A DNA stretch of 64,000 nucleotides, from the NCBI GenBank assembly GCA_900473205.1, contig UCLB01000003.1:30115-94114 (forward strand), written 5' to 3'. The notes under the pieces are model-generated. The model did not search any database and was not told where the DNA came from. It saw only the letters and a program-made list of their open reading frames with translations. Position numbers and translations under genes: made by a program. This stretch comes from Hyphomicrobiales bacterium (GTDB lineage: Bacteria; Pseudomonadota; Alphaproteobacteria; Rhizobiales; Rhizobiaceae). This document shows, piece after piece, positions 3,139 to 45,495 of the stretch (positions are counted from its first letter, which is position 1; each line of letters begins with the position of its first letter).

Positions 3139-3450
3139 GGTTAACGACAGGTAAGCGAAGGATTTCGTTATATTTTTCCCATTGCGTTAATCTTTGTGGC
3201 AGCGGCATGTGCCGCTATCCCCTGCTTTTGTGGGCCACCGCCGCAATTATGCTTAACATGGACCGTTAAAGTTTGAGCGAAACGTCATTCTTAGTCCTGT
3301 CACGGAACAAATAGATACAATTTGAATTAAATCCTGCCGGTTTTCGCAAATGGCTGTTGGTCTCTTGGTTCTAGGGTGATTCCAAGCCCGGACAACAGGG
3401 CAAACACGGACGACCCGAAAAGGGCGACGTTTGAACAGGGTAGTTTCGCA
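3139..3450. other. Intergenic region between divergent genes, no gene seen
   Basis: About 310 bp between the kinase operon and the DUF5330 gene. It must hold both divergent promoters. TTAA-containing motifs occur (for example near 3142 and 3251), but none fits the CtrA consensus TTAA-N7-TTAA exactly. I see no convincing RNA structure. Confidence 0.5.
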
Positions 3451-3891
3451 ATGTGGTTTTTGATCAAGTCATCGATCTTCTTTTCGCTGGTTCTGGTGGC
3501 GCTGTCCTACTTCGGTGGGTCGAGCGACAACACTTCGCAGCCGTCGCAGATGAACGTGGCCGGCGCCGTTTCGGCTGCCAGCGAAGCCTACCGCTATGTC
3601 AGCGCCATCTGCGTGGAAAAGCCTGATGTCTGCGTCAAGGGCGCCGAAACCTTTCATGCGCTGGGTGAAAGAGCCCGCGAAGGCGCAAAAGTCGCCTATC
3701 AGCTGATCGACGCCCAACTGGCTGGCAACAACGAACCTGCCGTCAAACTGGCCGACACCACCCCCGCCGCACCCGCCGTCACTGTGCCTGCCGCAACCAT
3801 CGACGTGGCGCAGGAAAGCGACGACATCAAAACCGGCACCATCAAATCCCAGCCCTACGTGCCCCTGCCGCTGCGCCGCCCGGCACCTTGA
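3451..3891 (+). CDS. DUF5330-type membrane-anchored hypothetical protein
   Basis: About 146 residues starting MWFLIKSSIFFSLVLVALSY, a single N-terminal membrane span or uncleaved signal, followed by a conserved region with two cysteines (SAICVEKPDVCVKGAE) and a Pro/Ala-rich tail ending LPLRRPAP. This fits the small alphaproteobacterial DUF5330 family of unknown function. An upstream in-frame ATG at 3376 exists, but the hydrophobic start at 3451 is preceded by CAGGG and fits an export signal. Transcription probably ends at the hairpin at 3985-4022. Confidence 0.65.
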   Translation: MWFLIKSSIFFSLVLVALSYFGGSSDNTSQPSQMNVAGAVSAASEAYRYVSAICVEKPDVCVKGAETFHALGERAREGAKVAYQLIDAQLAGNNEPAVKLADTTPAAPAVTVPAATIDVAQESDDIKTGTIKSQPYVPLPLRRPAP

Positions 3892-4111: not shown

Positions 4112-4144
4112 GGAGCTGTGGTTCGAACAACGGATAATGGACAG

Positions 4145-4561
4145 ATGGCCTCTCTCGACAAGATCATGGACGACTTTGCCTTTCTCGATGATTGGGAGGA
4201 TCGCTACCGCTACGTGATCGAGCTTGGCAAAGATTTGCCCGATCTGTCCGAGGACAAGAAGACCGCCGAGAACAAGGTGCAAGGCTGCGCAAGCCAGGTC
4301 TGGCTCGTCAGCCATAGCGATGGTTCCGCCGACCCGATCCTCACCTTCGAGGGCGATTCCGACGCCCACATCGTGCGCGGCCTCGTCGCCATCGTCATGG
4401 CCGTCTATTCCGGCAAACACGCCTCCGAAATCGCCGGGCTCGACGCCATCGAAGTCTTCGGCAAGATTGGCCTTGTCGAACACCTCTCCTCCCAACGCGC
4501 CAACGGCCTGCGCTCCATGGTCAACCGCATTAGATCAGAGGCGCAGCTGCTGGCAGCGTGA
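4145..4561 (+). CDS. sufE: SufE family cysteine desulfuration protein
   Basis: About 138 residues. SufE accepts persulfide sulfur from the cysteine desulfurase SufS on a conserved cysteine and passes it to the Suf Fe-S assembly scaffold in the cytoplasm. That cysteine is visible in KVQGCASQVW (Cys48 from the chosen start). The rest (LGKDLP, IVRGLVAIVMAVYSGK, GLVEHLSSQRANGL) matches the family along its length. Start MASLDK is preferred over the upstream ATG at 4118 because it matches the usual N-terminus. No suf operon genes are adjacent, as is common for a stand-alone sufE. Confidence 0.92.
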   Translation: MASLDKIMDDFAFLDDWEDRYRYVIELGKDLPDLSEDKKTAENKVQGCASQVWLVSHSDGSADPILTFEGDSDAHIVRGLVAIVMAVYSGKHASEIAGLDAIEVFGKIGLVEHLSSQRANGLRSMVNRIRSEAQLLAA

Positions 4562-4601: not shown

Positions 4602-4624
4602 TTGGGCTCGCAATGGAGTTCGAG

Positions 4625-4954
4625 ATGCCCGCATTGTTGAAAAAAGTCAGCACGATTACGGAAAAGGGCCAGGTCACTGTGCCGAAATCCGTGCGGGATG
4701 CGCTTGGCCTGGGATATGGCGGGCGCATAGCCTTCTACATCGATGAAAACAGACATGTCTCGATAGAGAAGGAAGTGGACGAGGAAGACGATCCCGTCAT
4801 CGACGGCTTCCTTGCCTTCCTCTCCCAAGACATGGCAAAGCATCCCGAACATATTCAGGAGTTTCCCGAGGCGCTGCGCCAGCGAATGATGGAACTGACG
4901 AAGGGTGTCGAAGTCGATCTGGATGCGCCGATCGATGGCGATGTGACGATCTGA
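4625..4954 (+). CDS. prlF: PrlF-type antitoxin (AbrB/SpoVT swapped-hairpin fold)
   Basis: About 109 residues. The N-terminal AbrB-like DNA-binding signature is clear (STITEKGQVTVPKSVRDALG) with the following GRIAFYIDEN, and the C-terminal part is acidic, as expected for binding a basic toxin. The PrlF (SohA) family neutralises the YhaV ribonuclease and represses its own operon. ATG at 4625 has GGAG seven bases upstream (inside the ORF opened by ATG 4613), so the shorter start is preferred. Its stop is one base before the yhaV start. Confidence 0.85.
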   Translation: MPALLKKVSTITEKGQVTVPKSVRDALGLGYGGRIAFYIDENRHVSIEKEVDEEDDPVIDGFLAFLSQDMAKHPEHIQEFPEALRQRMMELTKGVEVDLDAPIDGDVTI

Positions 4955-4955
4955 C

Positions 4956-5459
4956 ATGCCTGTCATTAATGGCTGGACCGTCCGCGCGCATCCGCTTCTG
5001 CTCGACCAGCTTGAAAAGCTGACGACAACCGTAGAGCATCTGGCTCGCAAAGACCCCGAAACCTATCGCAACAATGCCAACACCAAGTTGCTGGCAGCAC
5101 TTCAGTCCCTCTTGTTCGACAAAATTCCGCAAGACCCAACCGCCACATCCTATGTTCAGGGCAACACACTCGGCACGACCCGCCGCCACTGGTTTCGAGC
5201 CAAATTCGGCGGCGGGCGGTTTCGTCTGTTTTTTCGCTACAGCACCAAAGCGAAAGTCATCATCATCGCGTGGGTGAATGATGAAAACACGCTGCGAACA
5301 TATGGTGCCAAAACCGATGCCTACGCCGTGTTCAAAGATATGCTCAATGATGGCAACCCGCCGGATGAATGGGAAAGGCTTCTCAAGGCTACATCTGGCA
5401 GCAGTGTGGAAAAGCGTCTCGATACAGCCTTCGGTTCCGCAAAAGGGAAAAAGGCGTAA
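4956..5459 (+). CDS. yhaV: YhaV family toxin (mRNA interferase)
   Basis: A 167-residue protein whose central part is typical of YhaV: YRFG-like core TRRHWFRAKFGGGRFRLFFR and IIAWVNDENTLRTYGAKTDA. The family folds like RelE and cuts mRNA, in a ribosome-dependent way for the E. coli member. The gene starts one base after the antitoxin stop (TGACATG), so toxin synthesis is probably coupled to antitoxin translation. Nothing looks truncated. Function in this organism is inferred from the family and the gene order. Confidence 0.87.
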   Translation: MPVINGWTVRAHPLLLDQLEKLTTTVEHLARKDPETYRNNANTKLLAALQSLLFDKIPQDPTATSYVQGNTLGTTRRHWFRAKFGGGRFRLFFRYSTKAKVIIIAWVNDENTLRTYGAKTDAYAVFKDMLNDGNPPDEWERLLKATSGSSVEKRLDTAFGSAKGKKA

Positions 5460-5486: not shown

Positions 5487-6308
5487 TCACACACGCGGTC
5501 GATACCCCTCCGCACCCCAGTGGTGGCTCTCGCGTTTGCGTGCTGTGGGCTGTGGCGGGTTATAGTGTCGGGCAAGGGCCAGCAGGGCGGTGCGCAGCAT
5601 GAGTTTGGCGGAGCGGACGGGCCACTGGCGTTCGCGTTCCACCAGTTCCAGCCCTTTTTCGAAACAGCAGACATCGATAGCCACGCCTGACAGTTCCGGG
5701 CCCATCGCGTCTGCTGCCGTGGAGAAGCGGTTGCGCGCGGCCATGGCGGTGTCGGTGAGGTCTTGGGCGCCGTTGGCTTGGCCTTTGACGCGTTTCGACA
5801 GGCGCGGCTCCCAGGAGGCGGTGATGCGGGGGCTGAGTTGGCCGCGGTGGAAATCGCTGGCCAGTCTTTCGCCTGCGTCCAGTGCTTCTGCGGGGAAGAA
5901 GGAGTGGCCGTCACGATCTTTCAGCCGCAAGAGGGCCAGAAGCGGCGAGGACAGTTCGTTGCGCCGGGCGGTCTGGCGCGCGCCTTCAATTTCCACCGAG
6001 ACCAGGTCGCAGAGACGGTGCTGCTCCTGAAAAATCTCGTCGCGTTCCTTGACCATGGCGCGTTTGAGGAAGGCGCTGGCGGTGTCGCAGGGGGTGAGCC
6101 TGTTGTCCTCCATGCGCAGCAAGCCGGAGGCAAGCCCTTGCTCCAGCACATGTTTTTCCATGCTCCGAGGCTCCGGCGCATGATCGACGTTGATTTCGAC
6201 CTGCGCGCCGCAATCCTTCACCTGCGCCGGGCCGCGCCCGATGAAACGCAACAGGCGCACCAACGCGCGTTCGGTGTGCTTCTCTTGCTTGCTTTTGCCC
6301 TCAGTCAT
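5487..6308 (-). CDS. DUF6456 domain protein
   Basis: About 273 residues. The C-terminal half carries the DUF6456 pattern (LDAGERLASDFHRGQLSPRI, then SWEPRLSKRVKG and WPVRSAKLMLRTALLALARHY). The N-terminal region is rich in charged helices (TERALVRLLRFIG) and may be a degenerate winged helix. The family is restricted to Alphaproteobacteria and has no assigned role that I know of. The start ATG lies within the last bases of the preceding DnaA-like gene (ATGACTGA), so the two are coupled. A GTG two codons earlier is possible. Likely DNA or replication related, by association only. Confidence 0.75.
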   Translation of the reverse strand: MTEGKSKQEKHTERALVRLLRFIGRGPAQVKDCGAQVEINVDHAPEPRSMEKHVLEQGLASGLLRMEDNRLTPCDTASAFLKRAMVKERDEIFQEQHRLCDLVSVEIEGARQTARRNELSSPLLALLRLKDRDGHSFFPAEALDAGERLASDFHRGQLSPRITASWEPRLSKRVKGQANGAQDLTDTAMAARNRFSTAADAMGPELSGVAIDVCCFEKGLELVERERQWPVRSAKLMLRTALLALARHYNPPQPTARKRESHHWGAEGYRPRV

Positions 6309-6714
6309 GGTCACCTGCCTGAAGCGTTGCGAGAAGCGGCTTTGCCTGCTCCTCGACAGCCGTCACGAATTCATCGAAACCCGGATCGTCACGGCGGTCT
6401 TCCACCCGCTGGCAGGCGATGCTGACCGTGGAGCGGTCCCGCCCGAAGCAGACGGCGACATTTGGGAGGGGCAGAGACAGCGTGACATGGCAGACATAAA
6501 GCGCGATCTGGCGGATATGCAGCATGGCATGCCGACGATCCCGCCGCATCATGTCGCGGTCCACGATCTGCGCAAATGTCTCATAGGTGATTTCGCGCAC
6601 CCGCTGGCAGGCAGCGCGATGCTCCATGGGAACCGCTGGTGGCGGGCTGAGGCTGGCGGAATAAACCGTGCCAAAGGCCGGTTCCGCGCTGGAGGTTTCA
6701 AGTTGGAAGGGCAT
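6301..6714 (-). CDS. Stand-alone DnaA domain-IV-like DNA-binding protein
   Basis: A 137-residue protein. Residues about 65-115 resemble the DnaA C-terminal DNA-binding domain: RQIALYVCHVTLSLPLPNV followed by the signature-like GRDRSTVSIACQRVED (compare DnaA GRDHTTV...). It has no AAA+ ATPase region, so it is not an initiator. It could bind DnaA boxes and compete with or modulate DnaA, or use the fold for another site. It is translationally coupled to the DUF6456 gene. The domain call comes from motif recognition; function is unknown. Confidence 0.75.
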   Translation of the reverse strand: MPFQLETSSAEPAFGTVYSASLSPPPAVPMEHRAACQRVREITYETFAQIVDRDMMRRDRRHAMLHIRQIALYVCHVTLSLPLPNVAVCFGRDRSTVSIACQRVEDRRDDPGFDEFVTAVEEQAKPLLATLQAGDHD

Positions 6715-7099
6715 GATGCAACTCCTGACTAAATAGGAATTAATTCATACACCATCAAATCGGCAGCATCAATCTCAGAAATAGGCTCGAAAAATGACGG
6801 ATTAAAATTTCTCTATATAAGAAATGAGGATTATTTTCTTATTTAAATGAGCAATCCAAGATAACTACTGGCCGGACAACGTTTTCGACAAGGCGTTTCA
6901 AACCCACTTGACAGTTTTTCGATTCGAGCGCATCTAGCTACACATGATCAACGCACGCGCACCCATTTCCTGCACGTATTTTTGGGCCTTCCTTTAAGGG
7001 CGGCTCGACAGATCACTTTGTCAACAAGCCGCCGTCAGGCGGCTTTGTTGTTTTCAAACGTCCTGACGGCACTACACCAAGAAACCGAAGGACGAGACA
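6715..7099. other. Intergenic region holding divergent promoters and a candidate RNA
   Basis: The left half (6720-6860) is strikingly AT-rich and probably contains the promoter of the leftward DnaA-like gene. The right half contains a CTTGACA -35, a weak -10, and paired hairpins described separately at 6940-7055. No protein gene is supported. Confidence 0.5.
6940..7055 (+). ncRNA. Candidate small RNA or attenuated leader
   Basis: A promoter-like CTTGACA (6907-6913) with a -10-like CATCTA (6931-6936) would start transcription near 6943. The transcript ends in a strong terminator: AAGCCGCC (7026-7033), GTCA loop, GGCGGCTT (7038-7045), then TTTGTTGTTTT. The left terminator arm AGCCGCC can also pair with GGCGGCT at 6999-7005, giving a mutually exclusive hairpin. 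This could be a roughly 110-nt small RNA, or a leader controlling the acetyltransferase gene at 7100. Ends are estimates. Confidence 0.45.
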
Positions 7100-45339: not shown

Positions 45340-45495
45340 ACCCCCCTCTGTCCTGCCGGACATCTCCCCCTCAAGGGGGGAGATCGACTCGTGGTTGGCT
45401 CTCGGCCATATCGAAGGCTGCGGATGGAGTGGGGGGCACGCGTCTGGCCGATCTCCCCCCTTGAGGGGGAGATGTCCGGCAGGACAGAGGGGGGT
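45340..45495. repeat. Complete MITE-like element with perfect 47-bp terminal inverted repeats
   Basis: 156 bp. The ends 45340-45386 and 45449-45495 are perfect inverted copies (47 bp), beginning ACCCCCCTCTGTCCTGCCGG. The terminal repeats are themselves partly palindromic (CCCCCTCAAGGGGGG). The inner 62 bp differ. No transposase is encoded. It is inserted between the ligase and exonuclease genes. A truncated relative lies at 1-129. Confidence 0.9.

Follow-up and report, generated by a model that had tools for sequence, protein, structure and literature searches.

A gafY–gafZ operon of the Agrobacterium group and a palindromic operator apparently shared by the switch and the gene transfer agent promoter in Hyphomicrobiales

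Introduction

The gafYZ switch turns on gene transfer agents (GTAs), phage-like particles that carry DNA between bacteria (PMC9638019, PMC9632790). The Caulobacter orthologue was first named hdaB for a phenotype in replication, and later work reassigned it to the activation of GTAs (PMC9632790). In this bacterium, the GTA promoter is activated by GafY together with IHF and sigma-70, and GafZ is described as an antiterminator whose site lies between the -35 and -10 elements (PMC11150451). The gafYZ operon is repressed by RogA (PMC9632790, PMC11150451); the purified repressor binds a region with a GGAA-N4-TTCC repeat, and its enrichment is reported only for gafYZ and CCNA_02002 (PMC9632790). Hyphomicrobiales, among which Agrobacterium and Brucella are named, have gafA divided between two genes, a small DnaA-like one and one of DUF6456 type, and sufE lies downstream of them (PMC9638019). 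The initial annotation of the locus studied here offered no described function for such a pair, but GafA/GafYZ, including this split form beside sufE, had already been described (PMC9638019). The pair is ordinary in kind and its function is known, and the wiring of its operators is the new part.

Results

Identity and conservation of the gene pair

The window, by which we mean the whole 64,000-nt stretch of DNA analysed, contains the two genes as overlapping frames.

6301..6714, minus strand: gafY, encoding a DnaA domain-IV-like protein of 137 aa (PF08299, 41.9 bits; its model matches DnaA chains)
5487..6314, minus strand: gafZ, encoding a DUF6456 protein of 275 aa with a GTG start (ATG at 6308 possible; PF20057, 142.3 bits)

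The gafY product matched Bac_DnaA_C (PF08299) at residues 49–104 with a score above the Pfam cut-off of 31.5 bits, and at E 0.01 this was its only Pfam family, with no AAA+ domain. The HMM search thus bore out the initial description of a DnaA domain-IV-like protein lacking the AAA+ part. The DnaA equivalog model TIGR00362 gave 35.6 bits, far below its cut-off of 343.9. Only two Bac_DnaA_C matches were present in the whole genome: gafY (43.3 bits) and, in a 538-aa frame on a different contig, a DnaA gene (111.3 bits). The gafZ product exceeded the PF20057 cut-off of 26.3 bits and was the sole DUF6456 match of the genome; among 14 control genomes, this profile matched Caulobacter vibrioides and none of the others, a result at profile level. 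The two reading frames overlap by 14 nt from the GTG at 6314 or by 8 nt from the ATG at 6308, in agreement with the stop/start overlap noticed at first.

Among the best 80 of 489 relatives in named genomes, those nearest to the gafZ product were from Agrobacterium rosae (75%) and A. bohemicum (74%), which places the genome in the Agrobacterium group; Rhizobium skierniewicense (71%) was among the further named species. In the same best 80 of 489, gafY adjoined gafZ on the same strand in 79 of 80 loci, and a start codon lay within 30 nt of the gafY stop in 77 of the 78 named loci that could be measured. The conserved pairing and the DUF6456 protein as partner, both proposed from the window sequence, therefore held across relatives. 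In the 30 best-scoring loci of each wider survey, gafY was present at 27 in the order and 28 in the family, where one of the two misses (L044) stops at a contig end. It was not seen in the fetched stretch around one strong but short DUF6456 match (G187, L096) or around nine weak ones (L098–L106), which are divergent DUF6456 proteins from one genus of the same family and two other families. We consider it very probable that the two genes are a gafY–gafZ operon, the activator switch of an RcGTA-type GTA, in an Agrobacterium-group genome, and the earlier puzzle would thereby be solved, the pair being a known switch.

Two conserved neighbours lie outside the switch and give its context.

4118..4561, plus strand: sufE (PF02657), present in 78 of 81 related loci
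3376..3891, plus strand: DUF5330 gene (PF17264), present in 65 of 81 related loci, with flanks of about 3 kb

A PrlF-YhaV toxin–antitoxin pair (window 4613–5459, plus strand) is located between gafZ and sufE, a placement found in only one of the 81 related loci, that of A. rubi (L191). A repeat of about 150 nt, with copies approximately 70–90% alike at dozens of genome sites, occurs in the window at about 1–144 and at 45341–45494, and also directly before the GTA small-terminase gene.

We also considered whether phages carry the pair, and rejected this. The sole phage record with both genes (MW462191.1, L387) has the public name Bacteriophage sp., but its genes suggest a contig of a bacterial chromosome: many metabolic genes, and the usual chromosomal order of regulator, gafY, gafZ, sulfur-acceptor gene and kinase. 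Separately, the PHROG family phrog_31864 (316 positions) matched GafY near its start (E 4e-5) and GafZ weakly near its end (E 0.03), and is perhaps a phage-borne fused GafA.

Comparison with DnaA

Recognition of the DnaA box requires the base-reading histidine of DnaA. The corresponding position (E. coli His434) was Arg in 69 of 71 aligned GafY sequences, while 70 of these sequences kept Asp433 and 66 kept the residue at the Arg399 position. In the E. coli numbering used, positions 399, 435 and 437 follow PMC9638019, and 433 and 434 were obtained by counting. The signature accordingly reads GRDRSTV in the window GafY versus GRDHTTV in the DnaA of the same genome. The sequence TTATNCACA was absent from the window, where only 0.66 occurrences were expected, so this absence is uninformative.

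For the AlphaFold model of GafY (pLDDT 87.2), the nine best PDB matches were all DnaA chains (best E 3.7e-3, probability 1.00). Neither this model nor that of GafZ (pLDDT 82.1) had a PDB match at E 0.001; the GafZ model gave weak matches to sigma region-4 chains (E approximately 1 to 2, probability approximately 0.7 to 0.8).

The initial annotation had supposed that the small protein could bind DnaA boxes and restrain replication, or re-use the boxes for transcription, with the DUF6456 protein as helper, which is close to the old HdaB reading. GafY does have the DnaA domain-IV fold and signature, and over-expression in Caulobacter once suggested a replication effect (PMC9632790), but the authors of that work ascribed the effect to GTA production (PMC9632790), the base-reading position is changed from His to Arg in nearly all GafY sequences, and the pair co-occurs strongly with GTA genes (see below). 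We rejected a DnaA-box role on the His-to-Arg change, and a binder of DnaA boxes that modulates chromosome replication is very improbable. A role in transcription is what survives of the original suggestion; replication restraint and re-use of the boxes find no support.

Link with GTA genes and state of the GTA cluster

In the order (297 genomes), DUF6456 and GTA_TIM were found together in 196 genomes, DUF6456 only in 39, GTA_TIM only in 8 and neither in 54 (Fisher 2e-25), and in the family (199 genomes) the corresponding numbers were 145, 20, 5 and 29 (Fisher 7e-17), both tests being ones that ignore relatedness.

In the genome of the window strain, contig C25 carries the RcGTA-type head genes (terminase, portal, prohead protease and capsid), whereas the tail genes (DUF2460, baseplate-hub, NlpC/P60 and GTA_TIM) are on contig C54. 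This head–tail gene run is incomplete. The capsid gene match ends approximately 18 residues before the reference end, and C25 continues into unrelated genes. Neither C25 nor C54 had the six middle GTA genes that are present in the genomes G480 and G313, and when the whole assembly was searched with the G313 middle stretch, only the DUF2460 end on C54 and repeats were returned; C54 ends just past the DUF2460 gene, and the middle genes are possibly unassembled. In GTA_TIM, codon 832 is followed by an in-frame stop, whereas the frame is intact in three relatives. The cluster looks unable to make particles, and the pair may therefore have no working target in the window strain, although gafYZ itself is intact.

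The missing middle genes, the short capsid gene and the stop in GTA_TIM would suit a pair that is the functionless leftover of a dying GTA system in this strain. Against this, both gaf frames and both putative operators (below) are intact, and dN/dS was low in four pairs with the window (gafZ 0.14–0.23, gafY 0.12–0.14), values that may mostly reflect divergence predating the damage. We regard a functionless leftover as unlikely.

Carriers of the pair without GTA markers

DUF6456 was found without GTA_TIM in 55 genomes, 6 of which had DUF2460; the other 49 lacked both markers, so GTA genes are not the only context of DUF6456. In eight of these 49 every DUF6456 match was weak, and gafY was not seen in the vicinity. 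From the 20 family genomes with DUF6456 and without GTA_TIM, 14 were fetched, and gafY stood beside gafZ in all 14, including 11 without both markers.

In one pair of relatives that carry the genes without both GTA markers (L197/L198), dN/dS was 0.21 for gafZ and 0.08 for gafY, and gafYZ is thus under purifying selection in this one GTA-less pair. Six Agrobacterium-group pairs gave 0.11–0.23 for gafZ and 0.10–0.20 for gafY; of the eight relatives in them, the six that were checked showed GTA genes. Three pairs with L196 or L216, counted neither as GTA carriers nor as GTA-less, gave 0.13–0.17 and 0.07–0.12, respectively. The pairs L216/L225 (0.69 over 67 codons and 0.42, from a partial gafZ stretch) and L088/L092 (saturated) were left out.

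These carriers raise the question of a GTA-independent regulon for which the pair would be kept in strains without a working GTA, perhaps including the window strain, where gafYZ is intact beside a cluster that looks broken. Such a regulon would fit the 49 genomes without both markers, the 11 family genomes with adjacent genes, the dN/dS values of the one GTA-less pair and the binding of Caulobacter GafY to about 18 further promoters (PMC11150451). However, GTA absence was judged by two markers (GTA_TIM and DUF2460) in assemblies some of which are fragmented, the losses may be recent, and within the genus the operator described below rose beyond control level only at the gafYZ and GTA promoters, although it is the presumed site of the repressor and not of GafY. 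We hold a GTA-independent regulon to be conceivable but rather doubtful; the presence of the switch in genomes without GTA markers makes such a role directly testable.

The operator palindrome

Expectation maximization (EM) on 44 stretches upstream of family gafY genes returned a 16-nt palindrome, ATARGAANWWATTCCT, with a score of 318.6 versus 69.2 and 74.9 for shuffled sequences. It contains GGAA-N4-TTCC, the repeat of the RogA-bound region of Caulobacter. Two putative operators of this kind precede gafY in the window.

6733..6748, plus strand: putative operator 1, ATAGGAATTAATTCAT, 18 nt before the gafY start codon, one mismatch to the pattern
6827..6842, minus strand: putative operator 2, ATAAGAAAATAATCCT, 112 nt before the gafY start codon, one mismatch to the pattern

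A scan of the window with up to two mismatches gave three matches, two of which are one site, against 0.27 expected. An operator scoring at least 14 was present before gafY in 79 of 79 named loci and in 15 of 1580 shuffles, the named loci partly overlapping the genomes that trained the model. At the same threshold, 16 of the 19 family loci in which a terminase was matched had it upstream of this GTA gene (5/570 shuffles), as did 9 of 19 loci from other families of the order (2/570 shuffles). The three family misses were L076 (where the upstream stretch spans only 506 nt), L125 and L133.

In 13 genomes of the genus, a search with up to one mismatch yielded 32 operator matches, compared with eight for the backwards-pattern control. 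Fifteen matches (14 sites, 11 genomes) were before gafY and ten, in 10 genomes, before the GTA small-terminase gene, that of the window strain (L075) included; two of the 13 genomes (G488 and G497) had the operator at neither promoter. The remaining seven, six of which were fetched, lay elsewhere, and since the control gave eight, sites away from both promoters are at control level.

A factor other than a RogA-type repressor, such as an XRE protein of the PraR/Cdx type or GafZ itself, might instead bind the palindrome. RtrA, RtrB, CdxA and CdxB also bind the Caulobacter gafYZ promoter (PMC10688885), and the C-terminal part of Rhodobacter GafA binds its own promoter (PMC9638019). On the other hand, Caulobacter GafZ binds the GTA promoter only (PMC11150451), and the PraR consensus CAAC-N5-GTTG (PMC5527310) is unlike the GGAA-N4-TTCC named for the RogA-bound region; PraR was rejected as the binder because its consensus differs. 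Overall, another binder is a possibility to which we give little weight, and a RogA-type repressor remains the preferred one.

The GTA structural promoter

At the GTA structural promoter, the operator palindrome abuts the -35 box (TTGAC). We compared 18 such promoters, including that of the window strain (L075); they were selected by a TAGGAA...TTGAC pattern, and only the other columns count as evidence. The -35 box was TTGACA in 10 of 18. In the 17-nt spacer that follows TTGAC, the palindrome CGTNACG was conserved with C, G, T, C and G in 18/18 and A in 17/18 loci; it lies between -35 and -10, where GafZ binds in Caulobacter (PMC11150451). TAGNNT followed at 17 nt, with T and A in 18/18, G in 16/18 and the last T in 17/18. 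Approximately at the expected transcript start was (T/C)A(T/C)NGTC, with A, T and C in 18/18 and G in 17/18, an element that resembles a -10 hexamer.

The promoter core without the operator (20 fixed bases) was then used as a query against a viral contig collection, an arrangement in which the core was chosen and the operator and terminase were free. It replaced a 14-base core that had given at least 120 stretches, unclassified as a set. The 20-base pattern gave 41 stretches. A GTA terminase match started within 2.5 kb downstream in 40 of these; the exception (L363) had approximately 4 kb without one and an operator scoring 16.6. An operator scoring at least 14 was within 24 nt upstream of the core in 40 of 41, the exception (L406) scoring 13.3. 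The 41 stretches are most likely GTA clusters that have been called viral. In L127, a second operator–promoter module was observed inside the GTA cluster, approximately 3.3 kb past the start of the terminase match.

EM on 48 stretches upstream of GTA genes, run for a shared GafY or IHF site, gave modest motifs only (47.9 versus 38.4 and 42.5 for shuffles; 84.8 versus 51.2 and 58.5; 98.3 versus 67.8 twice), the longer of which are partly the block just before the operator, and no GafY site was recognized among them.

Discussion

The gene identity, the pairing, the joint occurrence with GTA genes, the presence of the operator at both promoters and the conserved promoter layout are direct observations. 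From the described systems we infer which protein binds which site, antitermination and the sigma contact. GafY would use its DnaA domain-IV fold on sites of its own rather than DnaA boxes and recruit sigma-70 RNA polymerase with IHF. GafZ would load between the -35 and -10 elements of the GTA master promoter and act as a processive antiterminator. A RogA-type repressor on the two palindromes that precede gafY would keep the operon silent.

In the order, both the switch and the GTA promoter appear to carry the RogA-type operator. This suggests a double lock in many Hyphomicrobiales, in which one RogA-type repressor would act on the gafYZ promoter and on the GTA -35 box, in contrast to Caulobacter, where RogA was found only at gafYZ. 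The GTA master promoter would then be read in the order operator, TTGAC, CGTNACG (for GafZ), TAGNNT at 17 nt and the -10-like (T/C)A(T/C)NGT. By our own reasoning, this last element could pause sigma-bound polymerase while GafZ loads, in the manner of lambda Q; PMC11150451 uses neither "pause" nor "pausing". We see about even prospects for the joint scheme of a double lock, a fixed promoter module, a GafZ-loading pause and a genus operator at two promoters with control level elsewhere. An operator on both the gafYZ and GTA promoters was not reported in the literature searched, which lacks most subscription papers.

What results is a map of GTA control, precise and open to test, for a large order many of whose members are associated with plants or animals. 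It predicts a direct action of the repressor on the particle genes and provides a sequence-level hypothesis for antiterminator loading. The operator and promoter module can also be used to locate GTA clusters and switches in other genomes.

Among the related systems, the DnaA initiator shares the domain-IV fold and most of the signature with GafY, but has an AAA+ domain and the base-reading His that is Arg in GafY. Contact with the omega subunit is reportedly a feature of Rhodobacter capsulatus GafA. This GafA, like the pair described here, has a DnaA-like N-terminal DNA-binding part and a DUF6456-annotated remainder and activates GTA production (PMC9638019), but it is one fused protein, whereas here there are two overlapping genes. 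The split gafA loci of Hyphomicrobiales likewise have both genes with sufE nearby; unlike them, the present locus has PrlF-YhaV between gafZ and sufE and a GNAT gene upstream instead of mucR (PMC9638019). The GTA promoter resembles the lambda system in having a conserved -10-like hexamer close to where the transcript should start.

The lambda Q system has a pause element near the transcript start. As in the lambda Q and AlpA antiterminators, the binding element here would be between -35 and -10, a comparison taken from PMC11150451, which describes GafZ as without similarity to lambda Q/AlpA; the window GafZ model had weak sigma region-4 matches only. Another close system is GafY–GafZ of Caulobacter crescentus (CCNA_01111/CCNA_01112), which also consists of a small DnaA domain-IV-like protein followed by the partner gene (PMC9632790, PMC11150451). 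Both have GGAA-N4-TTCC repeats in the operon promoter and a palindrome between the GTA -35 and -10 elements, whose sequence differs between the two. The Caulobacter GTA -35 element is called degenerate (PMC11150451), whereas here the operator palindrome abuts the TTGAC of the GTA promoter.
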